From assembly GCA_950295325.1 (NCBI GenBank), contig OX485806.1, positions 38,874,001 through 38,938,000 of the forward strand: a DNA stretch of 64,000 nucleotides. Direction: 5' to 3'. The notes beneath the pieces were generated by a model. It was not told the origin of the DNA and ran no database searches. It saw nothing but the letters and a program-made list of their open reading frames with translations. Position 1 is the first letter of the stretch; each line of letters starts with the position of its first letter. The position numbers and the translations under genes were made by a program. The stretch is from Polytrichum commune (Eukaryota; Streptophyta; Polytrichopsida; Polytrichales; Polytrichaceae). Shown here piece by piece: positions 591 to 59,988 of this stretch.

Positions 591-1610
591 AGTGCCCCTT
601 ATTCCTACTGTGATCATAATGGGTGATAGTACAATGCACTCTAGTTGGGATAGGAGTAGGTGGAGAATGGCGTATGTATCAAATTCTTAGTTGGTTGCTT
701 TTACGGGGAATCTATCATTGTAGTAAGTGAATTCAAATATTTGTACTTTGTGGTTTGGGTTGGGTGTGAAGGGTGGTTTATCTGTACGTGGTGCTTCGAA
801 AATGCATAATACATTGGGTCTAAGTCAAGTTGGGCATTTACATCTTGGTGGATAGTATGTGCATGGGAGTAGCCATGAGGGTATGGTATTGTCATGTGTG
901 CAATATTTAATGTTATTGGCGTTGATTAGGGTAAAGCAATAGGTTGTGGGGTGGGCTAGTAGTGTGTTCGCTAGTGTGTGTATTATTTTATTGCATTGAT
1001 TTGTCCTTATATTGTTTATGTGTTTATTAATGCAACATGATAGTAGGTAGAGGCATGTGTCATTTTGGTGAGATGTGCATAAGTTACATGTTGGGGATAT
1101 GTCTTGTTTGAAAAAGTGTTTTCTTTAGTAGTTCCCTAAGTATCTTCCATATCTAAATTTGAGGGTTTGTGTTATTTGCGCATTAGTAATCTAGGGGGCA
1201 TCCCATAATAGATTTTTCATTTTATGTAGATTTTGTCATTGGATTATGAGGAACTTATTTGGGTAGTTATATTGTGAGGATGGGTATTTTATGTCCCTGA
1301 GGGGAATATATATGTTGTTGAGGCTATACATGAATATGAATGTATCCGTTGGGAGCGTTTTGGTGTATTCGTGGCGATCATGATTGTGTATAATTTTGCT
1401 ATGAGAATATTGGGGCATCCGGGTAGGCGAGCACCGATATTGATTTGTAGTAGTTCATTGAAAAATCCGGCTCATGTGATATTGCCTTTTCCTTCTCCAT
1501 CCGGTGGTGTAAATTAAACAAGTGGGAAGTGTAAGGGGAGAAAGGTTGATGTTACAGTTGGTGGTGTGTGTGTGGGGGGCAGAGGGAGGGGGGGGGGGGT
1601 TGATTCATTG
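591..1610 (-). pseudogene. Degraded LINE copy A, part 2: RNase H to restriction-like endonuclease
   Basis: On the minus strand the order is RNase H remnant, then zinc/RLE region, as in the intact LINE. Recognisable pieces are WRRKRQYHMS (compare WRRERAGYGI), FIFMYSLNNIY at about 1315-1345 (compare FIFTYSLNVLY), and IFEFTYYNDRF at about 705-740 (compare FIEFTYCNDRF, the RLE core). Between them sit a Cys-rich LLPCTYYPPRCKC match and RPNVLCI (compare RPDILCV). Several stops and frameshifts make it a dead fragment. The third RNase H catalytic position is Tyr here, as in the large copy. Confidence 0.75.
1564..1604. repeat. GT/G-rich microsatellite
   Basis: A short (GT)n run followed by almost pure G lies at the upstream edge of LINE copy A. 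Confidence 0.8.
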
Positions 1611-6185: not shown

Positions 6186-7214
6186 CAGGGTTGTCTATTG
6201 TGTCGTGACGGAGGGTAATCCCGACATAATGTCGTGCCGTCACGACACGTATCCGTCACGACATTATGCCGGATGCTGTCTTTATCCTGACGGACTTGAA
6301 TTTTACCGATTTTTTTGTGTAATTACATTAACCCATTTCTGACACGTAGGATTTACAATGTCCACGTGTGATGACATGTCAGCAAAGTAAAGGTAAAGTG
6401 GGGAAAAATTTACTAGAGCCCGTCCGCCCCCCCGTCCGCCTCCGTTCCCAACCCCCGTTCGCCCCTGTTCCCCCCCGTCCGCTCCCGTTCACAATCCCCG
6501 TTCGCCACCGTTCCCCCCCGTCCGCTCCCGTTCCCAACCCCGTCCGCTCCCCCCTCTCCCGTCCGCCCCCCCCCCCCCGTCCGTCCGCTCCCCCGTCCGC
6601 CCCCCCCCCCCTCCCCCGTCCGCTCCCCCACCCCCGTCCGCTCCCCCGTCCGCCCCCCCGTCCGCTCCCCCCCTCTGTCCGCTTCCCCGTCCGCTCCCCC
6701 CCGTCCGTCCGCTCCCCCCCCCTCCGTCCGCTCCACCCCCGTCCGTCCGCCCCACCCCCGTCCGCTCCACCCCCCTCCCCCGTCCGCTCCACCCCCCTCC
6801 GTCCGCCCCACCCCCGTCCGCTCCACCCCCTCCGTCCGCCCCACCCCCGTCCGCTCCACCCCCCTCCCCCGTCCGCACCACCCCCCTCCGCCGTCCGCAC
6901 CACCCCCCTCTCCCGTCCGCCCCACCGTCCGCCCCACACCTTCCTTAGTCATATTTTTCTACTTTGATTTTAACAGAACCCTAAACACAATGGCAAAATG
7001 GTTTACTTGGCAAGGGAAATATGCACATCCACGTCGGCGTTTTCTGCCACATAGGACGCCACCTTGGCAAGAAGGTAAGTATTTTACCCACCCTAGTCCA
7101 TTCCCCCTATGTTGACCCTACGTGGACCCTATTGTGTCGTGACGGAGGGGTCCGTCACGACACGACCTGACATGACGGCACGACACCGTCATGACGTCGC
7201 GATAGACAACCCTG
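6186..7214. mobile_element. hAT-type non-autonomous element with GC-rich minisatellite core, 1,029 bp
   Basis: It starts CAGGGTTGTCTAT and ends with the inverse ATAGACAACCCTG. It is flanked by a perfect 8-bp duplication TTGGTATT (6178-6185 and 7215-7222). Subterminal regions are packed with repeated CGTCACGAC/GTCGTGACGG motifs that could be transposase-binding sites. The centre (6418-6945) is a C-rich array. No transposase is encoded. A second, shorter copy is at 25073-25715 with its own 8-bp duplication. Confidence 0.9.
6418..6945. repeat. CCGTCCGCC-type minisatellite
   Basis: About 530 bp of irregular CCCCCGTCCGCTCC-like units lie inside the hAT element. The array lacks stop codons in several frames, so it yields long but meaningless Pro/Arg or Gly/Arg reading frames. 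In the sister element the same place holds only about 130 bp, so array length accounts for the size difference between copies. Confidence 0.9.
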
Positions 7215-8249: not shown

Positions 8250-9235
8250 CATGTAATACGACATTCTCGCCCCTTCTCTCATGTAATAATGAGAAAGTAC
8301 CACTTAACCCCTCCATCCTACTTCTCTCAAGCATGCCAAACCTAGCACACACCTCTTTCTTCATACACAAACTCCTAAACACACTCCTTCCTCTATGCAC
8401 CACATACCCGATCAAACATCACCACAAGAGAACACACCTAACACCAAAGTCCCTAAATAATGGCACTAAAGGTGAGTTTCCATGTAGGCCACTCACCCAC
8501 CGGATTCTGGTGTGAATAAGGACAAACTTGCCCAAATGCGAAGGGGATTTGGTCGGTTGATTTGCATATGCCAACTAGCTACTCCCATCTTCTCAAATAT
8601 GTGCCCACCTACTAACCTCCTCCCCTTTCTAAAATCGTTATGCAATCCTTCGGTGATCGAGGCTTGTAGATTAAAAATTATTTAGTGAGCACATGAAAGT
8701 CTATCAGCATGTATCCATGGCCCTCTATTTTTAGTAGACTATCATAATGTGGTTGAATGGTGACTTGTGCTCAACTACATGTGAAGACCTCCAACCCACT
8801 ATTTTCTAGAATCTAGTGGGTGAGTGGCCTACATGGAAACTCAGCCTAAGCACAACCCTTGCCACTTATTCCACTACCCAATATCACTCTACCCCTCTTA
8901 CCATCTATAATGAACTTACGATTCCCACCGGACCGTTCATATTACACATATGGCTCTTTCACCCCTTGGATGAAAATGGTCACGGAAACATTACGGGCTC
9001 CGGAGTATTCAATGACCCCTCACAAACCAACATAGCAGCTAAATTACCTACATATCCAAAACATCTTCCGAGCATAATTACATGCACTACTTCTTGTGGT
9101 AGAACACACTAAATCCCTCTCCATTAACACATTTATCTTCATTGATAGCCTCAACATCATATACTTTCTACTAAACCACATCATAAACCCGTCCGCACAA
9201 AATAACCATATCACATGGCACACATCATAAACGCG
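8250..9235 (+). pseudogene. Degraded LINE copy B, part 1: RNase H region
   Basis: The stretch just before 8940 aligns with the segment upstream of RNase H in the large LINE. YYTYGSF at about 8938-8960 matches the RNase H motif YYTDGSF, with the first catalytic Asp changed to Tyr. FIFIDSLNIIYFLLN at about 9129-9170 matches the third-Asp region and keeps the Asp. Stops and frameshifts are frequent. The copy is interrupted by a MITE at 8470-8846, breaks off at 9235 where a solo LTR begins, and resumes at 10923. The part left of 8470 is assigned with less certainty. Confidence 0.65.
8470..8846. mobile_element. Tourist/Harbinger-like MITE (M4), 377 bp
   Basis: About 40-bp inverted ends (left GAGTTTCCATGTAGGCCACT, right its inverse) are flanked by TAA at 8467-8469 and 8847-8849, the 3-bp duplication usual for PIF/Harbinger elements. 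No ORF. It interrupts LINE copy B and is the intact relative of the split element at 5189-5937. A shortened relative is at about 22960-23075. Confidence 0.8.
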
Positions 9236-10922: not shown

Positions 10923-12035
10923 TAAAAAAAGACTCCCACAAAATTATTATAAGAAAAAGTCAAACCCCAAGTAAACATTCTAGGAAATGAAGAAGTTGAC
11001 AAACTAGCCAAAAAGTGAGCCAAAGAACCACATATCATACATATTACATTCCACCGTGTAGGACATCAAATACCATTCCAACCTCCATCGAACATGATGG
11101 CTCCATCCTTTACCTAAAAGGATACATAGAACCATAATGCAAAAGTGCCCTCATATCACATGCCACAAACACAATACCCAATGTCAGCAAAATGGCTATC
11201 CTCCAACCATATACACTCAAAATGGACAAAACTCTTATCGGATGCATATTGGATTATTGATGCCCAAATTACACAAGTGCTTAAATTAATGTATGGAAGA
11301 TATCTAGGTATTTATAGAAAGAAAAAAACACGTACTCAAACAAGACATCCCCTCAATGCAACCTCTACACAACCTGACAAAATATTAATTGTCTCCACTT
11401 TACAATCTTATTACAAGAATAAACACATAAATAACCTAAGAACCAACAAACAAAACAAAGTAGTACATGCACTTGCCCACACACTATTAGCCCACCCACA
11501 TACATTGCTTCACACTAATTAACCCTGGCAAATTTGAAGATTGCTCCCTAGATAACCCTATACCCTCATGGTCGCTCCCATGCTCATGCTTCCTCCCACG
11601 GTGCAAATATCCGGCCAAACTATGCTACAATATTTTACCCTATCGGTGCAACACCCACAACCAAAACCCCTTTCTCTCCCAATCCCCACCGAAAAGTCTA
11701 TGTCATAAAATTCACCTATTGTAATGACCGCTCTCTCCCACATAAGCTCTTTCTCACAAACTCAACAAATACGCTATATTACAACCACTCCCAATTCAAA
11801 AAGGTTAGGAAGTGCTATCACCGGCCATCATAACTGCAAGCATTAGAGGCTATCCTTAGGCACATTGTGAAGTACCTCAAAGATCTAAATGTAACCACCC
11901 ATAACATTCATAAACTCATGGAGACCTTCTTACAAATAGCCATTAGATATGTAACACACACTATACTAAACAAACATAAACTTGAGAAAAACACCCACCG
12001 GTCCCACTCGACTAAACCACCCATCACAACCATTA
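10923..12035 (+). pseudogene. Degraded LINE copy B, part 2: end of RNase H, RLE, C-terminus
   Basis: GNEEVDKLAKK at about 10990-11025 matches the closing RNase H motif (GNEKADKLAKEG). VYVIKFTYCNDRS at about 11700-11740 matches the RLE core. DLNVTTHNIHKLMETFLQIA followed by TILNKHKLEKN at about 11885-11990 matches the C-terminal helix. Stops and frameshifts intervene. It follows directly on the duplicated ACGCG after the solo LTR and ends shortly before a TA-type MITE remnant. Confidence 0.7.
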
Positions 12036-25072: not shown

Positions 25073-25715
25073 CATGGTTGTCTATTGTGTCGTGACGGAG
25101 GCTAATCTCGGCATAATGTCGTGCCGTCACGACACGTATCCGTCACGACATTATGTCGGATGTTGTCTTTATCCTGACGGACTTGAATTTTACCGAATTC
25201 TGTGTGTAATTACATTACCCCATTTCGGACACGTAGGATGTAAGATGTCCACGTGTGATGACATGTCAGCAAAGTAGAGGTAAAGTGGGGAAAAAATTAC
25301 TAGCGCCCGTCTGCCCCCCGTCCGCACCCGTTCCCGCCCCCGTTCCCCCCGTCCGCCCTGTTCCCACCCCCGTTCCCGCCCCATCCGCCCCTGTCCCCCC
25401 CCCCCCCCCCCCCCCCCGTCCGCCCCCGTCCGCCCCACACCCTCCTTAGTCATATTTTACTACTTTGATTTTAACAGAATGATAAACAGAATGGCAAAAT
25501 GGTTTACCTAGCGCTAGGCATATCCACGTCCACGTCGGCCTTTTCTACCACATAGGACGCCACCTTGGCAAGAAGGTAAGTATTTTACCCACCCTACTAG
25601 CTTCCCCCTAGGTTGACCCTACGTGGACCCTATTGTGTCGTGACGGAGGGGTCCGTCACGACACGACACGTCATGACCGCACGACACCGTCATGACGTCG
25701 GGATAGACAACCCTG
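25073..25715. mobile_element. hAT-type non-autonomous element, 643 bp (second copy)
   Basis: It starts CATGGTTGTCTAT (one mismatch to the family terminus CAGGGTTGTCTAT) and ends ATAGACAACCCTG. It is flanked by a perfect 8-bp duplication GAAGGAAA at 25065-25072 and 25716-25723. The sequence matches 6186-7214 throughout, except that the CCGTCCGCC array (about 25310-25440) is much shorter and partly pure C. A hAT-transposase-like remnant lies only 270 bp to the right. Confidence 0.9.
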
Positions 25716-46270: not shown

Positions 46271-46420
46271 TAGTTGTCAGTTCTCCCCATTCATGGAAGG
46301 AAGTCACGTGCGGGGTCAAATGTACATTGGCAATTGATTGTACTTGCAACAAAAATTGGATGGGTTTACTAAACCAAATTCTATCCTCCACCACTGAAAT
46401 GGCAGTCTGGTGAATGAGTA

Positions 46421-46430
46421 CTAAAGGAGC
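46421..46430. repeat. Left target-site duplication of the 13.1-kb LINE
   Basis: CTAAAGGAGC here is repeated at 59545-59554 directly after the LINE tail; the two bases before it (TA) also match, so the duplication is 10-12 bp. Confidence 0.88.
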
Positions 46431-47217
46431 GTAATTGTGATAGGGATTTGATGAGGAGCTGCTAAGGGCTCCGTATTTTCTGGTATGGTGTGAGATTGTG
46501 AAGTAAGCCGCTGGAGACTAGTGCATGTGCTGCCAGGAGCTGGCCTCGCAGTGACCCCGCATACACTAGACAACAGATGGTCAGGGTGCTTGAAGAGGTG
46601 ATTGGATGTGTTGAGGGGTACCTGTGAATGCTCAAAGTCCCAGATCTAGAGACTCAAGCGTGTAAATGATAGTTAGATCTCAAGGGGAAGAGTACTCTGA
46701 AAGAGCTGGGGCTCCGATTGGTTGTGATTGAGATTAAAACTTCATTTTTGCTTGTAGTTATCTAGATCTGAGATTTCTATGCAAACACGGCGGGAGAGGT
46801 AGCAAACACCCAGGACTCAGGCACATTGATACTTCCGATCGTCACATTGTACTAGAATTACAGTTTCAGCAATAGCCAGAGAGTCGCTCAAAAGAAGGCT
46901 CCTTTTCTCTTTCATTTATATCATTAATACATTTATCTTGCTTTTCAAACATAGCATAGATGCATGTCCCCTAGATCTAGAACTAAACCCTTGTCACAAG
47001 CCCGATCCACTGGTGGGAGAACCATCGACCCAAGATAGTGGAGCGCAAGAAGGGATCGTTGCAGAAGGTGGAAGAGGTTGCAGAAAGGGTGTCGTAGAAG
47101 AAATCCAAGGAGATTACAAAAAAGACGACGCCCCACATCGAGAAGTACGCAGAAGAGGAGTAACCCACAGCAAAATAGGCAGATCTCGCACACACTGCAA
47201 TCAGGGAGTAGAGCAGC
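46431..47217 (+). promoter_or_regulatory. LINE 5' leader / probable internal promoter region
   Basis: Relatively GC-rich DNA follows the target duplication and precedes the 168-bp units. LINE promoters are internal, so promoter activity is expected here, but no specific element can be pinpointed. A small frame from 46938 runs into the first tandem unit. Confidence 0.4.
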
Positions 47218-47943
47218 ATCAGAAAACCTGCGATTACACCGAATTTGGCACCGAGCTCACTGGACAACAAACCCATCACCGAGACAACGAGTGGAGCTGG
47301 AGAAGAGGTGGAGTAATCCCTAGCAATACAGGTAGATCTCATACACATTGTATTCGGGAAGGTGAGCAACACCGAATCACCTGTGAGTGCACCAGAGCAA
47401 GGAGAGCGGTACCTGAGCACCCACAGCCCCGACCTTGCAGATCAGACAACCTGCGATTACACCGAATCTAGCACCGAGCTCACTGGGCAACAAACCCATC
47501 ACCGAAACAGAGGCTACATTCTACACCGAGACAACGAGTGGAGTTGGAGAAGAGGTGGAGTAATCCCTAGCAATACAGGCAGATCTCATACACATTGTAT
47601 TCGGGAAGATCAGACAACCTGCGATTACACCGAATCTGGCACCGAGCTCACTGGGCAACAAACCCATCACCGAAACAGAGGCTACATTCTACACCGCGAC
47701 AACGAGTGGAGCTGGAGAAGAGGCGGAGTAATCCCTAGCAGTACAGGCAGATCTCATACACATTGTATTCGGGAAGATCAGACAACCGGCAATTACACCG
47801 AATCTGGCACCGAGCTCACTGGGCAACAAACCTATCACCGAAACAAAGGCTACATTCTACACCGAGACAACGAGTGGAGCTGGAGAAGAGGCGGAGTAAT
47901 CCCTAGCAGTACAGGCAGATCTCATACACATTGTACTCGGAAA
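47218..47943 (+). repeat. 168-bp tandem units in the LINE 5' region
   Basis: Full units start at 47440, 47608 and 47776 (GATCAGACAACC..), each exactly 168 bp. A shortened first unit begins about 47218 and lacks roughly 24 bp around AGGCTACATTCTAC. Because 168 is a multiple of three, the frame stays open and encodes 56-residue repeats (NEWSWRRGGVIPS, TELTGQQTHHRN). Flanking phrases (GAGCAACACCGAA..GGAGAGCGGTACC..CCTTGCAGATC) also occur twice, so a larger unit was duplicated too. This resembles 5' promoter monomers of some animal LINEs. Confidence 0.92.
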
Positions 47944-48072
47944 AGTGAGCAACACCGAAACACATGTGAGTGCACCGAACCAGAGAAAGGAGAGCGGTAC
48001 CAGAGCACACACAGCCCCGACCTTGCAGATCCCACAAGCAGAAGCAGACCCCGAAGCCCAAACTTAACTGAG

Positions 48073-49875
48073 ATGGCCGCGTCAAGAGCCCCTCCCCGAG
48101 ATAACAACAACATGGAGGGAAGGGACCTGATTCCGAAAACCCTAGCAAAGGTTTTTGGTGACGAGGAAGACATAATGGAGATTGACTCGCCTACTCAGAG
48201 CCTAAAGAAACTCCTTGCAGAGAAGGCCAAAACAAATGCCCGAGCTGCAGCCAATGGGAAGAGAGCTAGAGACCGGGCCGGGACATCCTCACCCTCGAAT
48301 TCCCACAAGGTGATCTCTCCCCGTAATGTAGTTCATGCCACAAAGCCCACATCAGACCCAAAACTCAAATTATGGTTAGGATTTGAAGTCATGGAAAAAC
48401 TTGCAATTGAGCAAGGAACTGATGAGTTATTTAATGATGAAACCATTGCTGATAGAACCACAAGAGGCATCCCCCGTAAGGAAGCCGAGGAATTAGAGAG
48501 TGTAAGCATTTCATACCCAAGAGTGCCACAAACTTTGTACCCAAGTGAGAGAAGTGATGGATTACCGGGTCAACATCTTAACCTCACTCAACTTCCATCA
48601 GAGATAGAAACTGACCCCATCTCTTGCATGTCCCTAGACTTTCAAATTGCCATTCATTTTCAACTCCCCAACAACCCCCTATTTCATAACCATGTCAAAG
48701 AGCTTGTTAAAGAGAGGCTAAATGCCATGCACATTCCACTAGGAACTAACCTCATCGAACCTATCTCGGTTCTATGCATGAGTATTAAGAGAGGAGGGGT
48801 TAAGGGCGTTTGGGCTGGGATAGTCAAACTCCACCTCCTTCACCCCCAAACCGATGGAGTAGCCTTACTCACGGGTCTTAGACCCTTCATTCTCCACCTT
48901 GAGCCCCACTCAAATGTTGGAAGCCTAGGCAAGATATGTAAATCATATCACTCCATTGCTAGGAATAACAACCTCTCCATCAAAATTTCAAATGACACTC
49001 TAGTAGGATTGACATCTCATGCTCTCTTTCTTGATATCCTTGAAAATAGCTTTAGAAGAGGTCATAACTTTGAAATTGTAGAAATACAAAAGACCACCGC
49101 TAACAACCATGCCTACATTGTTGCTCCTACCCCCCTACAAGCTAAGAAAATACAAACCCTCCAAATATCCACACACCACCAAATTCTTGATGGGCAAGTA
49201 ACAAAGGGCCCCTTTCTTACTATGGAGCAAAAGGCAAGGAAAGAGGCTCTTACCCTAACTTTCTACAACCTCCCCATTTTGATGAATATTGAAGACACCT
49301 CCCTTGAAATTTGCAAGGTACTAGGAACCAAAAATGTGGTATCCATTTGGTTCCACAAGCAAGATGGCTTGAGACACAATGGGAGTGCCAATGTGGAATG
49401 CCTCAACCCCTTTGTGTATAGGAAGTTTGTGGGTAAAGAAGCAAAAATTGGGGCCTACCATGTGGAAATTACCCCACACCGCCGTAGCCTAGATGGTAAT
49501 GACAAACCCCCCAAAGAGTTACTAATCAAATTTGGTTTTGAAGATACTAATACGTGTTTAGTAAACACAATTGAAGCCATCCAAAACCAAACACAAGGAG
49601 AAGAAAGTGCAACAAAGGGGGATGTTCTTACCGTCATGAAAGAGGCCATTGAGGAAGGTAACAAAAAACTCAAACTTGAACTCCACAAGGATATGGAGTT
49701 AAAAGATGACATAGTAAGAGAAGCACACATCTATGCGGATGAAATAAACGATAAACTCAAAAAACAGATGATGGACATCCAAAGCACCTTGACTTTGGCA
49801 CTTACGGGAATGCAACAAATTACGGGTGTGGTTAAACCAAACCTTATGCTAAAGGACCAACCAAATGTGGATTGA
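48073..49875 (+). CDS. LINE ORF1 protein, 600 codons from the chosen ATG
   Basis: The frame is open from 47362, but the first part is repeat-encoded. I choose the ATG at 48073 (MAASRAPPRDNNNMEGRD), which opens the non-repetitive part. The protein has an N-terminal basic, Ala-rich tract (LAEKAKTNARAAANGKRARD), then a globular region with alternating strand/helix character (SCMSLDFQIAIHFQLP; EALTLTFYNLPILMNIEDTS) that may hold an RRM-like or esterase-free nucleic-acid-binding fold, and a charged C-terminal helix likely to form a coiled coil (EEGNKKLKLELHKDMELKDD). In LINEs, ORF1 proteins bind element RNA and form multimers. No zinc knuckle was seen. It is intact in this copy, unlike ORF2. Confidence 0.75.
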   Translation: MAASRAPPRDNNNMEGRDLIPKTLAKVFGDEEDIMEIDSPTQSLKKLLAEKAKTNARAAANGKRARDRAGTSSPSNSHKVISPRNVVHATKPTSDPKLKLWLGFEVMEKLAIEQGTDELFNDETIADRTTRGIPRKEAEELESVSISYPRVPQTLYPSERSDGLPGQHLNLTQLPSEIETDPISCMSLDFQIAIHFQLPNNPLFHNHVKELVKERLNAMHIPLGTNLIEPISVLCMSIKRGGVKGVWAGIVKLHLLHPQTDGVALLTGLRPFILHLEPHSNVGSLGKICKSYHSIARNNNLSIKISNDTLVGLTSHALFLDILENSFRRGHNFEIVEIQKTTANNHAYIVAPTPLQAKKIQTLQISTHHQILDGQVTKGPFLTMEQKARKEALTLTFYNLPILMNIEDTSLEICKVLGTKNVVSIWFHKQDGLRHNGSANVECLNPFVYRKFVGKEAKIGAYHVEITPHRRSLDGNDKPPKELLIKFGFEDTNTCLVNTIEAIQNQTQGEESATKGDVLTVMKEAIEEGNKKLKLELHKDMELKDDIVREAHIYADEINDKLKKQMMDIQSTLTLALTGMQQITGVVKPNLMLKDQPNVD

Positions 49876-50752
49876 CCACAAACCGCCAAGAAAAAAAAAG
49901 TATTTATCACAATACTACCATATACATATATACATATATAGACATATACATGAAACATATACTGGAATAACTACAAAATACCATAACAACAAAGAAGGTA
50001 TTCCACAACACCCAAAAAACCATATGGAATACAAATACAAAACATGCCTCATATACCCGAATAAATACAATATACAACAAAAAACTACATACCCAATACT
50101 CAAACCAAAATACAATCCCCACATACAAAACAACAAACATAGAAAGTACTACCATTCAACGTACAATGGTCACACAAAGCATACCCTCAACTCAAAATAC
50201 CTCCCACCTCATTCAAAAAACAATCTCCATACGAAATACGGTAAGTGCCCAAAACGCATACTCCATCCAACGAACGGATGTCATCTAAAACGCATATTTC
50301 ATCCAAAACATAGTTCACACCCAAAACAAGCAACACATCCCAACTCAAAACCACACCTACAAAATAAACTTCACTCTAAACACAACCCACATCTAAACCC
50401 CAAACCCTGCCCCCTCTCAAACCCTAACTCCTATTTCAATCACAAAAGACACCCAAAAAGCAAAATGGCATCGGCCTACCGGCCTTACCACAATCCTAAT
50501 GGCCAACATCACTTCATAAATAATTGGAAACCTCACTCAATAACAATTCAAATACCAACAAACCATGCAAAATTACACTCCGTACCCAAACAACCAAAAA
50601 ACATTATACCCACCCTACCCAATATCCCTCCCATAACAAAACTTGCACTCACCAAAAACCAAATAAGAAAAAACCAAAGATACTCAACTTATATAAATAC
50701 TACCTCATTACATCAAGTATATCAAGTACGCATCAAAAACCTCGCACAATAA
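49865..50752 (+). CDS. Inter-ORF frame, His-Pro-Lys hexapeptide repeats (part a)
   Basis: This overlaps the end of ORF1 by 11 bases in another frame. The 295-codon frame is built largely of degenerate six-residue units such as SHPKQA, LHSKHN and PHLNPK (18-bp DNA period), rich in His, Pro, Lys, Asn and Thr and nearly free of acidic residues. It contains the first MASAYRP module (ATG at 50465). It may be coding, or a repeat-expanded spacer in which stops are rare because the DNA lacks G. In favour of coding is the precise MASAYRP start repeated four times; against it is the frame break at 50752. Confidence 0.45.
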   Translation: MWIDHKPPRKKKYLSQYYHIHIYIYRHIHETYTGITTKYHNNKEGIPQHPKNHMEYKYKTCLIYPNKYNIQQKTTYPILKPKYNPHIQNNKHRKYYHSTYNGHTKHTLNSKYLPPHSKNNLHTKYGKCPKRILHPTNGCHLKRIFHPKHSSHPKQATHPNSKPHLQNKLHSKHNPHLNPKPCPLSNPNSYFNHKRHPKSKMASAYRPYHNPNGQHHFINNWKPHSITIQIPTNHAKLHSVPKQPKNIIPTLPNIPPITKLALTKNQIRKNQRYSTYINTTSLHQVYQVRIKNLAQ

Positions 50753-52053
50753 CAACGTACATCCCTAAAGACAATAAATTACATCCTAAACATCATTCAC
50801 ACCCAAAGTACAAACAATACTCAACAAACAAAATGGCCTCGGCCTACCGGCCTCGCCATAAAACTAACCGCAAACTCCACCTCACTAATTGGAAACCTAC
50901 CCCAATAACAAACCAAACATCTAAACACGATGCAAACGCATACCCCTTAACCAAACAACAAGAAAACATAATACCTGCCCTACATCACACCTCCTCTAAA
51001 ATTAACCGCGCACTCATTAAAATACCAAAAATCAAAACAACTAACCTACATAAATACTACCCCTCTACCTCAAGTACAACAAAAGTAAATCAAATATCTA
51101 TAAACAAACCAAATTACACTAACCACCCACACAACAACAACCCAAAACATACTCTCCGAACAAAACACACCACACATCCAAATTATACTTCTCATCCAAA
51201 ACACAAAATACAACGGCCTCACTCACAATGTAGGTACCTCACAAGCAACGAACTTCATCCTACATCCAAACCGCATCCAAAATATAGGCTACACCCTAAA
51301 CAAAGGCCACACCCACAACTAAATCCCCCCCTCACATCTAAACAATCAAGTAACATTACACATGCCCTGAATTACGGAAAGTACCCAAAACACATACCAC
51401 ATCCAATGAACTACCTTCATCCAAGATATGGATCCCATCCAAAACACATAAGCCACTCAACACATATATCTCATCCAAAACATAACCCACATCATGAACA
51501 AGGAACCTACCCTAACCTAAAGGCATGCCAACAAAATAGACTACATCCTAAACATAAACCCCAACAAAAATCCGTACTCTACCCCCACTCACAACCAGAC
51601 CCCTACTCAAAATACAAACAACACCCAACAAACAAAATGGCCTCGGCCTACCGGCCTCGCCACAAAACTAACCGAAAAAATCACCTCACCAACTGGAAAC
51701 CTACCTTAGTAACAAATCAAGTACCTAAATACTATGTGAACTCACGCCCCTTATCTAAACAACAAGAAAACATAATACCCACCCTACACCACATCCCCTC
51801 TACAACAAAACTAACATTCATCAAAAATCAAAAACCAAGTAAGACACAACCAAAAACAACTAACCTATATAGATACTTCCCTACTATCTCAAGTACATCA
51901 AATATTAAACTTATAAATGTACCAAATTACTCTAACAACTACACAAAATACAACCCCCGAACACAACACACTACGCACCCAAATTTTACCACCCATCCAA
52001 AACAAAAAAATACAACGGCCTCTCTCACAATACAAGTACTCATCAAAAAATAG
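50524..52053 (+). CDS. Inter-ORF frame, His-Pro-Lys repeats with two MASAYRP modules (part b)
   Basis: The 509-codon frame contains MASAYRPRHKTNRK modules at 50833 and 51637. Each is followed by LTNWKP, then a run up to a Tyr-Tyr motif (LHKYYPSTSS; LYRYFPTISS), then hexapeptide units (LHPKHK, PHPKYR, LHPKQR). The modules correspond to the start of ORF2 at 52652 but lack its 2A tail. The region thus looks like successive duplications of an ORF2 leader plus hexapeptide DNA. Whether it is translated is unknown. Confidence 0.45.
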   Translation: METSLNNNSNTNKPCKITLRTQTTKKHYTHPTQYPSHNKTCTHQKPNKKKPKILNLYKYYLITSSISSTHQKPRTITTYIPKDNKLHPKHHSHPKYKQYSTNKMASAYRPRHKTNRKLHLTNWKPTPITNQTSKHDANAYPLTKQQENIIPALHHTSSKINRALIKIPKIKTTNLHKYYPSTSSTTKVNQISINKPNYTNHPHNNNPKHTLRTKHTTHPNYTSHPKHKIQRPHSQCRYLTSNELHPTSKPHPKYRLHPKQRPHPQLNPPLTSKQSSNITHALNYGKYPKHIPHPMNYLHPRYGSHPKHISHSTHISHPKHNPHHEQGTYPNLKACQQNRLHPKHKPQQKSVLYPHSQPDPYSKYKQHPTNKMASAYRPRHKTNRKNHLTNWKPTLVTNQVPKYYVNSRPLSKQQENIIPTLHHIPSTTKLTFIKNQKPSKTQPKTTNLYRYFPTISSTSNIKLINVPNYSNNYTKYNPRTQHTTHPNFTTHPKQKNTTASLTIQVLIKK

Positions 52054-52558
52054 ATTCCACCCTAAACTCAAACCACATCCAAAGCATAGTTTACATCCTA
52101 AACACAATACACAACCAAAACCTAAACCTTCCCCCGCACCTAAACAACCTAGTAACATCACACACACCCCACCCAACCCGATTACCATAATTAAAACCAT
52201 AAGCATGAAAAACCTAAAAACAAACAAAACACGCCCTTCACCCAATCAATTAGGAAATATAACACCCCCCTCACAACAAGATTCCTACCCAAAACAAAAA
52301 ATACCTCGGTCCCACCCACAATACTATTCTCATCCAAGATATAGCCCTCACCAAAAGCACAATCTTCATCCAAGGGGTAAGCTTCATCCAAACCATAGAG
52401 TCCACCTAAAACATATACTTCATCCAAAAGCCAAAATATACCCAAAACACAAATACCAACAACCGTATTGGTACCAACCAAAACAAGAAACCCAATCCAA
52501 CTCAAAATCTCACAAGCCTCACCCTACATACAACTTGTACCTAAACCCCACACCTTAA
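51917..52558 (+). CDS. Inter-ORF frame, His-Pro-Lys repeats (part c)
   Basis: The 213-codon frame continues the hexapeptide pattern (LHPKHN, HPRYSP, LHPRGK, LHPNHR, ILHPKA) up to just before the ORF2 leader. Same composition and the same doubt about translation as the preceding frames; the frame changes between parts suggest indels in repeat DNA. Confidence 0.4.
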   Translation: MYQITLTTTQNTTPEHNTLRTQILPPIQNKKIQRPLSQYKYSSKNRFHPKLKPHPKHSLHPKHNTQPKPKPSPAPKQPSNITHTPPNPITIIKTISMKNLKTNKTRPSPNQLGNITPPSQQDSYPKQKIPRSHPQYYSHPRYSPHQKHNLHPRGKLHPNHRVHLKHILHPKAKIYPKHKYQQPYWYQPKQETQSNSKSHKPHPTYNLYLNPTP

Positions 52559-52651
52559 CCCCACTCCAAACACCACCTACACCCTAAATACAAACCCTAC
52601 CAAAAACATAAACACCCATATTCAAAATACAATCCCTACCCAAATAACAAA

Positions 52652-54178
52652 ATGGCCTCGGCCTACCGGCCTCGCCACATAAATAACACATACCACTTCA
52701 TAAAAAATTGGAAACCTAACTCAGTAACAAACCCACTACCTACAAACAATGCAACGTCACACTTCTTACCCGAACTAGTAGAAAAAACCACTCCCGCTAT
52801 GCCTAACCTCTTTTCCACAACCAAATTCACATGTTTGAAATATCTTAAAATAAATATGAGAAAACCAAAAACACTTCAATTCTACGGATATTACTTCATT
52901 GACATACTAGATCTACTAAAATGCGGAGATATCGAACTTAACCCGGGACCAATGCCTGATATTCTACGAACACACCCTATTACACAAAAAAAAAGAGCCA
53001 ACACGTATTTTGTCCCAAATACTATAAAACTACAACCTGAATACCAACACCTAGCAAATACATTCGTCCCTATCCTAAAACACACACACCCACTACACCT
53101 CCAAGCAATCACCACATACCCACATCTACACCATTATACCCAAACACAAAACCAGTCGCCACCAACCCATATGCTATACGCCCTAATTATTACCATCCAC
53201 CCCGCAATGGACATATGCAATAACATGCTAGTCCAACCCCAAAACTACCACTTTAATAACATATGGACCAACACGTTAATCATTAGGCTAGCTAACCTCA
53301 CCAACCCCCCCGAGCGACACATACTGACACCGCACCCCTACACAACATTCATAGAAAACAATCAACATATAATACTCCCTCAAAACTCAATACACACAAA
53401 AATATACGAATTCATCCACAACCAAGAAACCACACCCACATCAACCACCCTCAAGAAAGAATTCCCTTTCCTCCCAAACCAGTTGATAACCGAAACACTT
53501 AGATGTTTAGAAAACATCAGCGAATACTCACACCCACCCCCACTCCCAGCCGCTCCCACACCAATCACAAGAATAAACACCAACACCGAACATGAAACAA
53601 TCATAATAACTTGGAATGCGTCATCACTCAACACATCATTACCAAACTTACAAAGCTTAATAAACAACTATCTAAACAACACAACAATCATACACATCCA
53701 AGAAACCAAACTTACTGCAAACAAATCTACGAAATATATACAAAATCTATTCCCGGAATTCAAACTCATTTTCAACAACACACACGCACTCACAAGGTGC
53801 ATCCAACAAATGATGCCTTATACCCCCGGAAGAGGTGGCCTACTTACACTTATCCATCATAAATATGCATTCCCAGGGAATGTCACCAAAATCCCCACAC
53901 CAGCAAACATCTCCCCATATCTACAAATAATAAAAATAAATAACCACCCACTAATCATACACATGTATATGCCCACGCACTTAGAAGACACATATCTTAT
54001 CCCACACCTTAAGAATGAAATCACTAACCAAATCACTATACACCCTAATCACATATATACACTATGCGGAGACTTTAACAGAGATATTGCACTCAGGGGC
54101 AGACAAAATAACAACACTAACACCCCCCATAAGAAGAAGACTTCCAATGGAAAAACTTCACCACATCTCTCAACTTAG
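52652..54178 (+). CDS. ORF2 fragment: leader, 2A peptide, AP endonuclease N-terminal part
   Basis: Residues 1-99 form the leader, ending LLKCGDIELNPG, and residue 100 is the 2A Pro. The APE motifs follow: ITWNASSLN (about 53605), IHIQETKL with catalytic Glu codon 53702-53704, GRGGLLTLIH, MYMPTH, and GDFN at 54068-54079. The frame then fails near 54120-54135; the rest of the domain (TSLIDGFYI, SDHYPVTL with SDH at 54319-54327) is in another frame. APE nicks target DNA to start target-primed reverse transcription. All visible catalytic residues are kept. Confidence 0.85.
   Translation: MASAYRPRHINNTYHFIKNWKPNSVTNPLPTNNATSHFLPELVEKTTPAMPNLFSTTKFTCLKYLKINMRKPKTLQFYGYYFIDILDLLKCGDIELNPGPMPDILRTHPITQKKRANTYFVPNTIKLQPEYQHLANTFVPILKHTHPLHLQAITTYPHLHHYTQTQNQSPPTHMLYALIITIHPAMDICNNMLVQPQNYHFNNIWTNTLIIRLANLTNPPERHILTPHPYTTFIENNQHIILPQNSIHTKIYEFIHNQETTPTSTTLKKEFPFLPNQLITETLRCLENISEYSHPPPLPAAPTPITRINTNTEHETIIITWNASSLNTSLPNLQSLINNYLNNTTIIHIQETKLTANKSTKYIQNLFPEFKLIFNNTHALTRCIQQMMPYTPGRGGLLTLIHHKYAFPGNVTKIPTPANISPYLQIIKINNHPLIIHMYMPTHLEDTYLIPHLKNEITNQITIHPNHIYTLCGDFNRDIALRGRQNNNTNTPHKKKTSNGKTSPHLST
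52928..52951 (+). other. 2A ribosome-skipping peptide (DIELNPGP)
   Basis: The canonical 2A signature D-(V/I)-E-x-N-P-G-P is complete, preceded by the hydrophobic FIDILDLLKCG. Known 2A peptides make the ribosome skip the bond before the last Pro, releasing the upstream peptide (here 99 residues) from the downstream enzyme. 2A peptides occur in LINEs of trypanosomes and several animals. ATG follows immediately after the Pro codon. Confidence 0.88.
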
Positions 54179-54401
54179 AATATATTCAAACCAATACTAG
54201 TATCTCCAGACAAGGTGGATACAACTACACATCAACAAGCCTAATAGATGGTTTTTATATTCACTCCCCAGACAACAACAAATTTACCTCCACTACAAAT
54301 ACAAACATGAATCTAAATTCAGATCACTATCCAGTCACATTACATATTCCACACAACACACTTATAGCCAGACCCCACCCCCTACAAACACCTCACCAAC
54401 T

Positions 54402-55991
54402 AGAATACTGAACCCGATACCACCTGAAAACCTAGAAAAATTCAACATAACATTCTTTGAAGAAAACTCCACCCAACTTAAAATACTTACCACACTATTA
54501 GAAAACCACCAACACTTAACATCTGATCAATGGCAAGTTGCATGTACATCACTGGACTACATTATAAACAAAATCTCAGAAACAATTGAAAAAACCTGCA
54601 AAGCAGACCCACTACCCAACCTTACAACCAGAACATCGCAACAAGGTGGTTTTCTACCACGCAAACTAGCTAGAGAATGGAAAAGACACCTCAACACATA
54701 TCACCTCATTAGGAAAGCCATTTACATAGCACAACATGACCCACGCTGGCAAGTGCACCCCATCCTAAACGATATCCGAAACCACCAACACGTCAGCATT
54801 CCGCACCCACCCGCTACAGCAGCATCCCCTGATGAATGGATTAACACAATAGCGGCCATCGCAAAAATTGCAAATAAAGAAGCCAGAAAAATCACCACAA
54901 AATATACTAGAGACTGCATTCTAAAAGCCGTATCGAAATACCGCCAAATGTATGAAAAAAACTCCAAGAAAATAAACCGAAAAGTAATTGCAGCGCTTGA
55001 AGACGCAAGACTCACAAACCAAGATATATACATTCTTTACATTGACTTCAAAAACGCCTTTGGCTCCATTGACCACGCCAGACTCTTAGCCATAATGAAA
55101 GACTTGGGTTATCCCAATGACTCAATAAACCTCATATGAAACATATACTTACAATCTTCAACCATATTCACTGGCGAACACTTCGGAAAAACCCTACCAA
55201 TTCATATCCAAAAAGGTACAATACAAGGCGATACCCTTAGCCCATACTTATTCATCATATTTCTAGAACCCCTACTCAGATGGCTACAACAAGGAAACAA
55301 TGGATATACTTTCGGTACGTCCAGAGTTAAAATCTCATCAGCTGCATATGCAGACGACCTTGCAGCAATCGCCAACAAACTAGAGACACTACAAACACAA
55401 TTAAATAAACTAGACATATTCTGCGAATGGACAGGAATGGATTTAGGAATACCAAAATGCGCAGGAACTGGATGCCCAAACAAATCTAAACTTAACCCCA
55501 CAACCTTCAAGGCCCTAATCCAATCCACCAACATAAACTATAGAAACCAACCTATACCAGTCCTAAACCAACACGAACCCTACACATACCTAGGAATAAA
55601 TCTTGCACCATCACTTAAGTGGAAAACACAAATAAATACCACTACAGCTAAAGTAATCAAACAATGTCAAGCCCTCGTAGCATGCCCAGTTACTATGAAA
55701 CAAAAAATCAACATGGCTGATACAGTCATACGCGCTGGAATAGCATATAGCTTTTATGCAGTACCATACTCCATACCAACCATAAAAAAACTTGACAAAA
55801 AGATCATCGCACTCCATAAAACAATATGCGGAATACCCAAATGCACATCTAATATTACTACACAACTCCCCCACAACCTATTTGGAATTGAAGTATTTTC
55901 ACTACAAATGCCTACCTACGGTGTATTGGAGAGCAACTACAAAACGCCCTTAACGATAAAGGCCGAATTGGGAAAATTTATACCGGCCTAA
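54402..55991 (+). CDS. ORF2 fragment: linker and reverse transcriptase
   Basis: After a helical linker (PRKLAREWKRHLNTYHLIRK) the sequence jumps from KKINRKVI directly to AALEDARLTNQD and the palm motif YIDFKNAFGSIDH (first Asp at about 55042). Motif B is GTIQGDTLSPYLF (about 55213) and the catalytic YADD is at 55347-55358. The fingers motifs that normally precede the first Asp are missing, which I read as an internal deletion. A TGA at 55137 (probably from TGG) interrupts the frame. The thumb-like sequence then continues (YTYLGINLAPSLKWKTQI) until the frame shifts near 55920. Confidence 0.85.
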
Positions 55992-58900
55992 CGCAATTTA
56001 TACTTGCCAAATACGGAGGTTCTAAAGAAATTACCCGTATTAAATACTACCATTGTGTTAGATCACCTATTACTAGAACATTATTTCTGCTCAAGCATGA
56101 AGCAGGAGTCCACCTTAAAAGTACAATAAACAACTTCCTCCTACACCCATCCCCACTTGAAAACGCGTGGATGCAAGAAGCACAAATGCTACAGGGTCTA
56201 AATCCCAACACCTCACTTAAGCTATTACACAAATTGCTCATACATAATATAACAACACTAGACCAAATTACCATGCCTAATGGCACCACACTAATGAACC
56301 TAGATGAATTCAAAATCTACCACTCCACCCCTTCCAAACTCATCCAAAGTGCACTAAACATCGCTAATCAACTATTTTGCCAACCTCTCTGTAATCCCGA
56401 ATGCCCCCTACCATGCCAACGACACCATCCACCCAGATCCCTCAAAGACAAATATATACTAAGACACCACAACATTCTACCTCACCTACCGACTCCCCCC
56501 ATACACCCCCCAAATCCTCCCATCCCCCCTCTACCCCCTCCCCCCAACAACATACTTAAGGACCCCCGACAATATCCCATATACAAAATACTTGATCACA
56601 AACAAAAACAATCTACCGACCATAATGGAATAAAAAGAACAGTCACGTCATACCTATGTCAATGGACTACAATAAATAACCACACATACAACAAATGGCA
56701 AACCCCAAGGGACCTATACCCCTATTGTGATGCCAACACATGCAACCACAATACCACCCTACTTACCTACTACTACACGGAAAGACAACACAAACACTTC
56801 TCAAACATTATTAATGCCTACTTCTCCACCGAACAACAAAGAGACACGAGATATGTCATACCTACCACAATAATCCCACTAGCACATATCTCTATTAATG
56901 AGTGTAACCCAGAAAATGACATCGAAACCAACTCCGATACTATCCAAATACAATTCGACGTCGCTCACATATACGAAGATAATGGTAGGCACCTCATCAC
57001 CATCCCGAAAACCAGACTAATGTGGTTATGGAAACAATACCAATTGGCAAAAAATACCACACATGGTCTAGAACCGCCCACCCAATCTTTCGAAACCGAA
57101 ATGGTTTGGCTATATCAAAGATACAAATACCGAATCCCGAAAAATGACCCACTCAAACGTGCCCAATACACAATACCAACCCCAATATTAGATCTCCTAA
57201 TAACCACATTCAATATCAACCAGTCATACTTCTCATCCCCAGTGACATGCCCCACGCAACTCACCCAATTCTACTCGCCATTCTCACGGGACATAATATT
57301 TGGATCCTTAGGGAAAGCATTCGACCACAAATGGCAAGGAAAAGGATACGCTTACCCCCACAACGCAACAGACTTACAACAAGCCATTCACTGGGCTCGC
57401 ATGGCGGCCCAAAATGATCCATATACAATCACTATACTTATATCTCCGGATACCGACTGGTACAAAAACCCAAACCCGCACATAGGTCCATTCTTGGACA
57501 CACACATCATTGCCCAATTTGCAGCCGATACGATTGCATATGAAGAACCCACAATACCTCCCGAACTCAATATTACAAGAAAAGAACCGTCTACCCTACA
57601 AATATTTTGTATCCACCACCAAAACAATAATATAGGCACCTATGAACAAATGAAATTACTAAAGGACATAGCAGACAATCTCCAAATATTACAAAGCCAC
57701 ACCCAAATTGCACCACCCACCCCTTCAAACATCATAGTGAACTCTAGTAAAAAATGGTCTAAATCAAATTACCCAAAGATACCCCCAAACAATAACACCC
57801 CCACCCCACAACTCCCAAATTACCAAACGAACCTACCACTAAAATTCCACCCCCAATTCAGCTACTACACTGATGGCTCCTTTATGAAACCCAAAGAAAT
57901 AGCCCCTGGGGAATGGAGAAGAGAAAGAGCTGGATACGGTATCTACAGCCCCAAAGGGCTAAACATCGCCAATAGATTACATGGACATCAAAACATATTA
58001 CGAGCAGAAATGATTGCTATACACGAAACACTAAGCATCATCAACACACAATATCCCAACGAACCCGCATTCATATTCACATACAGTCTAAATGTATTAT
58101 ACCTACTTAACACTCAAATTAAACACCCCACACTTCATAATAGTCACCCAGACCAAACCACACTAGCCTCCATGGTAAAAACTCTTCAAAAAAAGACACA
58201 ACCAATTACACTATACAAAGTTAGAGCACACGTCAACATTGACGGCAATGAAAAAGCAGACAAACTAGCAAAAGAAGGATTAGAATTAGAGCACAGAATT
58301 GCCGCCCACCCATACGAACATGCCCACGCCACCCCTTACTATTACCAAAAAGACGTATGGGCCTCGATGGAAGACGTTCCGGACAAAGGCCCAGTTAGAT
58401 TCTTAGAAAAACAAATTAAAAAATATGATAGGGAAAAGAACCTAGCAATCATGGCCACACAAACCCCCAACACCTGTAAATGGACAGAAAACATAGAGAT
58501 AGACAACGAGTTGTCGAACGAGTTCTGGACAGATCCCGCTGTCACCGACAAACAAAAATCATGCCTCATCAAATTCCGCACAGGAACCTACATGGGGAAT
58601 GCGAGAAAACAAATGTTTTTTGGCCACCAAAGATTTCCCACTATCATGTGCCCCATATGCAACTCAAATGAACCAGATACATGGATACATGTATTACTTA
58701 CATGTAAACACCAACATATACACTCACTTAGAGTTAAAAGACATAACAAAGCAGTCGGAGAAATTAGGAAGCTCCTAATCTCATCAGAAAAATCCCGATG
58801 CTTTACTCTCATGAATGTTGGCACCTTCAATAACAACCCCCAAGAAAACACAGTCCCCAATTGGCTACTCCCCTGCACATGTAGTACACAAAGATGTCAC

Positions 58901-59053
58901 TGCAACGCAAGATTTAGACCTGATATCCTCTGTGTTAAAGGACTACCCTATCAAAATGCCCCTCCCAGAGATGTCGACCCTAACCTTACCATACAATTCA
59001 TTGAATTCACATACTGCAATGACAGATTCTCCCCAGAAGCAATTGAAGCATAA
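55931..59053 (+). CDS. ORF2 fragment: chromodomain-like, unknown, RNase H, CCHC and RLE
   Basis: Open for over 1,000 codons, including upstream of the first ATG at 56171. Chromodomain-like: YPIYKILDHK..SYLCQW..NKWQTPRDLY. Unknown domain: IPTPILDLLITTFN..YSPFSRDIIFG..FDHKWQGKGYAYP..ILISPDTDWY. RNase H: YTDGS, LRAEM, GNEKAD present, but the third Asp is Tyr (58082-58084). Zinc motif: CPIC..WIHVLLTC, then RHNKAV as in R2 proteins. RLE: RPDILCV, then FIEFTYCNDRF. A TAA at 59051 cuts off the RLE Lys (59060-59062) and the C-terminal helix. Confidence 0.85.
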   Translation, partial: EQLQNALNDKGRIGKIYTGLTQFILAKYGGSKEITRIKYYHCVRSPITRTLFLLKHEAGVHLKSTINNFLLHPSPLENAWMQEAQMLQGLNPNTSLKLLHKLLIHNITTLDQITMPNGTTLMNLDEFKIYHSTPSKLIQSALNIANQLFCQPLCNPECPLPCQRHHPPRSLKDKYILRHHNILPHLPTPPIHPPNPPIPPLPPPPNNILKDPRQYPIYKILDHKQKQSTDHNGIKRTVTSYLCQWTTINNHTYNKWQTPRDLYPYCDANTCNHNTTLLTYYYTERQHKHFSNIINAYFSTEQQRDTRYVIPTTIIPLAHISINECNPENDIETNSDTIQIQFDVAHIYEDNGRHLITIPKTRLMWLWKQYQLAKNTTHGLEPPTQSFETEMVWLYQRYKYRIPKNDPLKRAQYTIPTPILDLLITTFNINQSYFSSPVTCPTQLTQFYSPFSRDIIFGSLGKAFDHKWQGKGYAYPHNATDLQQAIHWARMAAQNDPYTITILISPDTDWYKNPNPHIGPFLDTHIIAQFAADTIAYEEPTIPPELNITRKEPSTLQIFCIHHQNNNIGTYEQMKLLKDIADNLQILQSHTQIAPPTPSNIIVNSSKKWSKSNYPKIPPNNNTPTPQLPNYQTNLPLKFHPQFSYYTDGSFMKPKEIAPGEWRRERAGYGIYSPKGLNIANRLHGHQNILRAEMIAIHETLSIINTQYPNEPAFIFTYSLNVLYLLNTQIKHPTLHNSHPDQTTLASMVKTLQKKTQPITLYKVRAHVNIDGNEKADKLAKEGLELEHRIAAHPYEHAHATPYYYQKDVWASMEDVPDKGPVRFLEKQIKKYDREKNLAIMATQTPNTCKWTENIEIDNELSNEFWTDPAVTDKQKSCLIKFRTGTYMGNARKQMFFGHQRFPTIMCPICNSNEPDTWIHVLLTCKHQHIHSLRVKRHNKAVGEIRKLLISSEKSRCFTLMNVGTFNNNPQENTVPNWLLPCTCSTQRCHCNARFRPDILCVKGLPYQNAPPRDVDPNLTIQFIEFTYCNDRFSPEAIEA

Positions 59054-59500
59054 AATAATAAATACAACTCACTAATTGCTAGCATTGCTTCCAAAGGATG
59101 GAAAATCGAACCACTTATTGTTATCACTGCTGGTGCCAGAGCGACTGCCCACATCCCATCTATGAAAGCACTAGAGACCAACTTCAAAATACCTATGGCC
59201 ACCATCAAAAATACTTTCAAAAATATTAACACCATTGCAATACAATATGCTATGTCTATTCTCCTCCATAAAAGGAGAATTGAAAACCACCAACCACTCC
59301 CCCAAAATCCAGACCCCCCATAACTCAGAACTTAAAAGTTAGGGTAAGGGGCAAAGGGTATTATATTAGGCGTAGGTTACATTACTGGTTTCTTGTGTCT
59401 AAAGTGTCTACTCTCGAAAGGGGGGAGTAGATCTTCTCCTTCATACCTTTGTCCTGTGGGCTTGGGATTGAAGGTAGATCGAACAGACACTTAATTCACG

Positions 59501-59521
59501 TCGGTCTCCTTCGGAGACCGA
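59501..59521 (+). other. 3' hairpin of the LINE
   Basis: TCGGTCTCC and GGAGACCGA pair perfectly over 9 bp around a TTC loop, just 5 bases before the (TTA)n tail. Many LINEs have a conserved 3' stem-loop recognised by their own RT; this is the obvious candidate. Confidence 0.85.
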
Positions 59522-59526
59522 AGTTG

Positions 59527-59544
59527 TTATTATTATTATTATTA
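59527..59544 (+). repeat. (TTA)6 tail of the LINE
   Basis: Six TTA units end the element and abut the right target-site duplication. Short simple-repeat tails instead of poly(A) are known in several LINE clades. Confidence 0.9.
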
Positions 59545-59554
59545 CTAAAGGAGC
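59545..59554. repeat. Right target-site duplication of the LINE
   Basis: CTAAAGGAGC, identical to 46421-46430. Confidence 0.88.
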
Positions 59555-59908
59555 TTCCCATGAGTTTGCAGGATCAATTGTGGCTCACAAAACATAACGC
59601 AACAAAACAAGTTAGTCACATGTGGCATGTACATTAGATCAGTAAGGCTAAGGGAGATCTCGAATTCATTCAATATAAATGCCATGAAATATCATGTAGG
59701 TTCGACTTTGTACATGCAAATGAATGTGCAAAATTAAACTAGATGTAAACCAAACTTGCTATATATGAAGGGGAAGTCAACTGTTACTTTAAAAAATGTC
59801 CATTTCAAAAAATGCAACGAAGCAGAGCATGAGAATCTATCATCTTTCCTCTTCGTTCAGAAGTAGATTGTCAGACATTCTCGCACGCTCTGTTTAAGCT
59901 ACTTTGTG

Positions 59909-59988
59909 TGACGGCTGCGGGGTTTGAACCCACGCCCTTTCGGACTGGAGCCTAAATCCAGCGCCTTAGACCACTCGGCCAAACCGTC
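59909..59988 (-). tRNA. tRNA-Leu (anticodon UAG)
   Basis: On the minus strand the acceptor stem GACGGTT pairs with AGCCGTC (one G-U) and the discriminator is A, as in all tRNA-Leu. The A box is TGGCCGAGTGG, the anticodon loop ATTTAGG gives UAG, the long variable arm (CCGAAAGGGC) makes it class II, and the B box is GGTTCAAACCC. The gene is intronless with no encoded CCA, typical of a nuclear plant tRNA gene. No T-run terminator is seen close downstream; the first good one on this strand is about 100 bp away. It lies 355 bp beyond the LINE duplication, on the opposite strand. Confidence 0.95.

Follow-up and report, generated by a model that had tools for sequence, protein, structure and literature searches.

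The stretch of DNA analyzed here ("the window": 64,000 nucleotides of Polytrichum commune, contig OX485806.1, positions 38,874,001 to 38,938,000 of the forward strand) contains a long interspersed nuclear element (LINE) that extends from one copy of a 12-bp target-site duplication, through two open reading frames (ORF1 and ORF2), to a hairpin, a (TTA)n tail and the second copy of the duplication (Table 1). Very probably it is a dead, full-length copy of a non-LTR (long terminal repeat) retrotransposon of a dual-endonuclease kind: ORF2 specifies an apurinic/apyrimidinic-type endonuclease (APE) upstream of its reverse transcriptase (RT) and a restriction-like endonuclease (RLE) close to its end. 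The order of the ORF2 modules, taken from a relative in the same genome whose ORF2 is open (L009), is 2A-like peptide / APE / RT / chromodomain-like module / PCIF1-like domain / RNase H / zinc knuckle / RLE. A first-pass annotation of the window had proposed a LINE combining an APE with an R2-type RLE in one ORF2. The combination is upheld by the ORF2 of L009, by profile comparison with R2 and by a fold search; the "one ORF2" exists as a single 2,372-aa frame in L009, while in the window copy it is not one open frame.

Table 1. Features of the element and of its surroundings (window coordinates)
Feature	Position	Strand	Basis or remark
Whole LINE element, about 13.1 kb	46431-59542	+	Flanking duplication, (TTA)n tail
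Left target-site duplication, TACTAAAGGAGC	46419-46430	+	Perfect 12-bp direct repeat
LDLELNPC, upstream of ORF1	46971-46994	+	Preceded by hydrophobic stretch
ORF1, 852 aa stop to stop	47317-49875	+	Uninterrupted
168-bp repeat, three copies, within ORF1	47439-47940	+	95-97% alike
A/C-rich, G-poor diverged repeat region, between ORF1 and 2A	49853-52558	+	804-bp spacing
2A-like (StopGo) peptide, near ORF2 start	52931-52951	+	Core DIELNPGP
APE-type endonuclease	53609-54333	+	Pfam Exo_endo_phos; frameshift near 54130
RT deletion junction	54957-54986	+	tblastn of L009 ORF2
RT remainder	54978-55919	+	Pfam RVT_1, 2.4e-22, read through
Stretch with chromodomain-like module, between RT and PCIF1-like domain	56498-56812	+	Pfam Chromo, weak
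PCIF1-like domain (MT-A70-like methyltransferase fold), between RT and RNase H	57062-57346	+	Pfam PCIF1_WW
RNase H	57860-58282	+	Pfam RNase_H, 7.5e-12
R2-like CCHC zinc knuckle and RHN block	58649-58747	+	Knuckle 58649-58705, KRHN 58736-58747
CxCx5CxC cluster	58874-58903	+	Immediately upstream of RPD
RLE core: RPD, EFTY, (stop)NNKY, GARA	58910-59143	+	
TAA at catalytic Lys position of KX2KY	59051-59053	+	
ORF2 end	59054-59323	+	
3'-terminal hairpin, GGTCTCC-TTC-GGAGACC	59503-59519	+	Perfect; 3' UTR folding
(TTA)n tail	59525-59542	+	Directly before right duplication
Right target-site duplication, TACTAAAGGAGC	59543-59554	+	Pairs with left copy
Related copy B, degraded, from the knuckle to the RLE	591-1226	-	tblastn 2.3e-36; 1e-39 with L009
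Related copy C, degraded, from the end of the RNase H to the RLE	10932-12022	+	KLNKY in one frame
Pieces of copy C kind	1604-2047; 8850-9209	+	E 4e-06; E 2e-07
tRNA-Leu gene	59908-59988	-	354 nt past right duplication

The limits first drawn for the element, 46431-59544, agree with an insertion, since the 12-bp direct repeat stands at both ends; chance produced a shared 12-mer in 16 of 2,000 random pairs of same-size windows (pairs less than 1 kb apart being skipped). The 3' untranslated region (UTR) folds more strongly than its shuffled versions (z -2.5; 1 of 200 shuffles equally good). Compared by eye, the 3' ends of the 13 relatives described below carry another hairpin (about CGCCGGTAT..ATACGGGCG) and, in most of them, a (TTTTC)n-like tail. 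The tail type thus seems to have switched inside one clade, from or to the (TTA)n of the window element.

Relatives were sought in the host genome (408 Mb in 64 contigs, seven of them 42-78 Mb long). Of 2,620 RT candidates 150 were scored, and all counts of relatives refer to those 150. The 13 matches spanning at least 800 nt (L009-L021) all have the RT, the PCIF1-like part, the RNase H and the RLE, and 12 of them the APE as well; the exception, L017, aligns to L009 only from residue 679 onward. L009 alone among the 13 has an unbroken ORF2 (Pfam RVT_1, 1.4e-32; RNase_H, 1.3e-14; Exo_endo_phos_2, 9.7e-08, above cut-off), so that the search for intact host copies recommended at the outset has yielded one with an open ORF2. 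Its ORF1 runs for 1,302 codons from stop to stop, it has a (TTTTC)n-like tail, and it comes to about 11.9 kb in total; a 12-bp direct repeat (located by search, with no shuffle control) bounds it. Identity over the RLE reaches 96-99% in three groups of copies, suggesting that dual-endonuclease LINEs moved recently in this host. Between families it is 73-84%. The window element has just 56-59% identity with every one of the 13 relatives and, judged by these identities, is a separate branch, older or faster than theirs. Outside the host genome, no relatives were found in viral contigs, in bacterial and archaeal genome contigs, or in plasmids.

Seven of the RT matches spanning 708-768 nt (L022-L028) belong to another LINE lineage, with about 25-29% RT identity. 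Their ORFs of at least 250 aa contain neither EFTY nor KX2KY, and the one that was scanned with Pfam, L023, has an APE, an RT and a zf-RVT domain in an ORF of 1,845 aa.

The APE motifs of the window copy (HIQETK at 53693-53710, GDFN at 54068-54079, SDHYP at 54319-54333) stand, on re-reading of the sequence, where the first-pass annotation had placed QET, GDFN and SDH. Every one of the 12 host copies with coverage, like the window, retains the catalytic E, N, D and H; the Asp of GDFN is present in 11 of these 12 and in the window, one copy having D changed to H. In the Protein Data Bank (PDB), a search with the APE retrieved only Exodeoxyribonuclease III, at E 0.26-0.35 and ranked under a chance match. 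The profile check proposed for the joined domain fragments succeeded for RVT_1 and RNase_H (E-values in Table 1) and fell short for the APE, which in two joined frames reaches only 8.3e-05 with Exo_endo_phos, below cut-off.

The RT retains FKNAFGSIDH (55038-55076) and YADD (55347). It scores 82 bits against R2 and 34 bits against L1, and R2 is the nearest among solved structures. In an RT tree of 23 rows the dual-endonuclease LINEs of the host form a clade (99/99) that includes the window element, on a long branch, and excludes two R2s and L022-L028.

At the other end of ORF2, the RLE motifs RFRPDI (58910-58927) and FIEFTY (58997-59014), together with the CCHC knuckle and RHN, are present where they had been claimed. 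A claimed K..KY at 59060 is half right: KY is there, and the catalytic first Lys, which is Lys in 13 of 13 relatives, is replaced by a TAA. The Glu of EFTY and the Lys and Tyr of KX2KY occur in all 13 relatives, the Asp of RPD in 10. Shuffling the 346-aa C-terminus 200,000 times never yielded the ordered motif, by a pattern composed post hoc; conservation among the relatives is the better support. Profile alignment (hhalign) of the knuckle plus RLE of 12 copies with three R2 sequences gives E 1.8e-05, unmatched in 200 column shuffles; with the RLE core alone it gives no significant R2 likeness. A PDB sequence search with the C-terminus alone found no match, and a Pfam match to L_protein_N, a bunyaviral PD-(D/E)xK family (E 0.08), was discounted because only one of 12 copies has it. 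Structure prediction is of low confidence: the RLE model, built from window rows only, has a predicted local distance difference test score (pLDDT) of 49.5, and single-sequence AlphaFold of the C-terminus one of 29.7. The fold search with the former nonetheless puts R2Bm first (probability 1.00, E 4.6e-03); each of its rows 1-8 is an R2 or a bunyaviral PD-(D/E)xK endonuclease, and each of rows 1-6 of VIA-align is an R2 aligned over R2's RLE. Absence of a PD-(D/E)xK fold had been set beforehand as the refutation of the RLE claim; that test did not turn against the claim, R2 standing at the top of the fold search, albeit with a model of that low pLDDT.

Purifying selection acts on the APE and on the core of the RLE alike. 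Against L009, and with ratios that are rough because dS often exceeds 1, the APE (7 pairs) and the RLE core (8 pairs) have the same median ratio of nonsynonymous to synonymous substitution (dN/dS; upper middle value for even counts), 0.15. On the same footing it is 0.06 for the RT (7 pairs), 0.08 for the RNase H (7), 0.03 for the knuckle/RHN block (6), 0.13 for the chromodomain-like module (8) and 0.18 for the PCIF1-like domain (8); the segment upstream of the APE has 0.36. These medians come from 8 of the 12 other copies; pairs that were uncovered or had too large a dS were dropped.

The window copy itself is broken. Its ORF2 has three frameshifts (tblastn with L009 returns pieces in frames 2, 1, 3 and 2) and in-frame stops (TGA at 55137, TAA at 59051); about 204 codons of the RT, equivalent to L009 residues 752-954, are missing; the second catalytic Asp of the RNase H (TDS) has become Tyr; and the catalytic RLE Lys is the TAA already mentioned. 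To judge from these lesions it is incapable of autonomous movement, and functional statements are therefore drawn from its relatives. The lost RNase H and RLE residues had been overlooked in the first-pass annotation. Its list of modules was also incomplete: it lacked the 2A-like peptide and the two modules between RT and RNase H, the chromodomain-like and the PCIF1-like one.

Pfam Chromo (PF00385) was matched in all eight copies scanned (8 of 14), at best with E 0.0021, below cut-off. PCIF1_WW (PF12237) is above its 31.1-bit cut-off in the window (1.2e-09, 38.5 bits) and below it in L009 (3e-06, 27.4 bits). With the window sequence of this domain alone, the sole match in the PDB is PCIF1 itself (6irx), at E 0.13 and in the same register; telling against the PCIF1 assignment, a nine-copy profile finds no PCIF1 there. 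The catalytic NPPF is replaced by [FYH]P[TKH][DNY] in 14 of 14 copies (YPHN, 57353-57364, in the window). At the position of the enzyme's A-N-P-P-F all 14 retain A-x-P (window 57350-57364; L009 ORF2 residues 1728-1732). No PCIF1-like module in any LINE appears among the literature matches listed.

In the window copy ORF1 matches no Pfam family above cut-off and is similar to the ORF1 of L009 by eye only. The repeat region that follows has a GC skew of about -0.68, and its 804-bp repeats include KMASAYRPRH..NWKP units; compared for signs of coding, two of these A/C-rich repeats differ at 44, 30 and 48 sites in the three codon positions (of about 181 each). The motif of the 2A-like peptide at the start of ORF2 is of the DIELNPGP type given as the 2A core in PMC12846837. 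A looser 2A-like pattern is found in 11 of the 13 relatives, and six of the 13 have two motifs. The LDLELNPC upstream of ORF1 is perhaps the degenerate remnant of another. Odon (2013) reportedly describes 2A-like peptides in APE-type LINEs.

How might such an element move? The ORF2 protein would be released from its upstream peptide through 2A recoding, as known families suggest, and the RT would bind the 3' hairpin and tail. One endonuclease would nick the first strand and so prime reverse transcription (target-primed reverse transcription, TPRT); the other would cut the second strand 12 bp away, and this distance is proposed to be the reason for the 12-bp duplication. RNase H, if it acts as its family does, would clear the RNA, and the chromodomain-like module would tether the protein to chromatin. 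Which of the two endonucleases cuts first? An order of APE first and RLE second is weakly favored. The PCIF1-like domain, having lost its NPPF, would bind the 5' part of the element's RNA, capped or rich in adenosine, without methylating it; that it recognizes RNA 5' ends is a guess from the known substrate of PCIF1. The complete proposal is speculative, with the odds well against it: a dual-endonuclease LINE branch of the plant lineage, recently active, would have acquired a module resembling a chromatin reader, and with it a PCIF1-like domain, altered in its catalytic motif, that recognizes the element's RNA by the capped adenosine at the 5' end. A former mRNA-cap methyltransferase would then check template choice and the completion of 12-kb full-length insertions, and APE and RLE would divide first- and second-strand cleavage between them.

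The dual-endonuclease reading has rivals. Perhaps the element is an APE-type LINE in which the C-terminal PD-(D/E)xK-like block no longer cuts and only binds DNA or RNA beside the zinc knuckle. The selection values lend this some color, the dN/dS of the knuckle/RHN block lying far below that of the RLE core, as do the loss of the RPD Asp from 3 of 13 copies and the failure of the core alone to resemble R2 significantly. The catalytic E, K and Y, however, persist in every one of the 13 copies, the core is held under purifying selection as the APE is, and the structures closest to the model are PD-(D/E)xK nucleases; a non-cutting block is accordingly thought unlikely. The PCIF1-like domain could be an active methyltransferase placing N6-methyladenosine (m6A) or N6,2'-O-dimethyladenosine (m6Am) marks on the element's RNA or DNA, as its above-cut-off score in the window copy and its purifying selection would allow, but replacement of NPPF throughout the 14 copies makes this improbable.

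A third possibility turns on the origin of the window copy: an element of the R2/RLE lineage into which chance recombination brought an APE, that is, a one-off chimera. An RT nearer to R2 than to L1, and an R2-like knuckle, would fit. APE and RLE nevertheless occur together in 12 of 13 copies belonging to several families, with both nucleases under purifying selection, and because of those 12 copies the one-off chimera can be regarded as already refuted. The dual-endonuclease LINE is left as the reading by far the best placed, and its presence as several families, with an open ORF2, in a single genome makes a division of labor between the nucleases directly testable.

Two further degraded copies, B and C, had escaped the first-pass annotation; at the protein level their pieces share 26-42% identity with the main element, and copy B may reach 26-1340 on the evidence of weak pieces (E 0.04 and 0.19). 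The nearby tRNA-Leu gene raised the idea of targeting near tRNA genes, which was rejected: no tRNA was found at 14 loci (short flanks only). That gene is the sole Rfam match in the window, which contains no rRNA match. Pfam found no families at E 0.01 in four of the six frames of each of two 15-kb flanking stretches. C-rich CCCGTCCGCC-type arrays lie at 6350-6967 and 25306-25436, and the sequence adjoining them is 87-88% identical between the two sites. Three of the four chromosome ends inspected carry (TTTAGGG)n telomeres of 109-119 units, which, like the seven large sequences of the genome, would fit a plant host.

Among known systems the element probably belongs with Dualen/RandI and works like it, to go by shared architecture. 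Joint possession of APE and RLE is the defining trait of that clade (PMC4640811, PMC3636483), which has been described from green algae (PMC3747384, PMC8226300) and annotated in cryptophytes (PMC12747079). Shared features are the arrangement in one ORF (in L009) of an APE N-terminal and an RLE C-terminal to the RT, an RNase H (found here by Pfam; for Dualen see PMC4640811), and a (TTA)n tail, comparable with the (ATT)n-type 3' repeats of green-algal RandI families (PMC3747384). Compared with Dualen/RandI as described, apparent differences are the length of 12-13 kb, the 2A-like peptide, and the modules resembling PCIF1 and a chromodomain; the present host has TTTAGGG telomeres and seven large chromosomes. 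Kojima and Fujiwara are said to have reported, in 2005, a cysteine protease as part of Dualen; no Pfam peptidase family matches the ORF2 of L009 at E up to 1, although a divergent one could escape.

R2 has a single ORF, lacks an APE and inserts in 28S rDNA. The present elements share with it the CCHC knuckle, RH(N) and a PD-(D/E)xK whose Lys is displaced into KX2KY (for R2 see PMC5678591), and differ from it in having an APE and two ORFs; unlike a fixed 28S target, the 3' flanks of the 13 copies differ (by eye). With plant L1 and RTE elements they have in common the APE, the RT and, often, RNase H, and with L1 the two ORFs (PMC9033089); they are unlike L1 in possessing an RLE and no poly(A) tail. 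A review of land plants names, in the passages cited here, only L1 and RTE LINEs, with (A)n or (GTT)n tails, and no RLE (PMC9033089). PCIF1, the cap-adenosine N6-methyltransferase, has its FGSxG region and its NPPF position in one register with the LINE domain, which differs in lacking NPPF and in being embedded in ORF2.

LINEs of a type chiefly known in green algae thus seem to have been recently active in the present host, since at least one apparently intact relative resides in the same genome, and to exist there in a more elaborate form. The placement of Dualen has served as the argument that LINEs with an APE originated when the RLE was replaced (PMC4640811). A second lineage in which both nucleases are under selection suggests that the double state is stable and not a passing stage.

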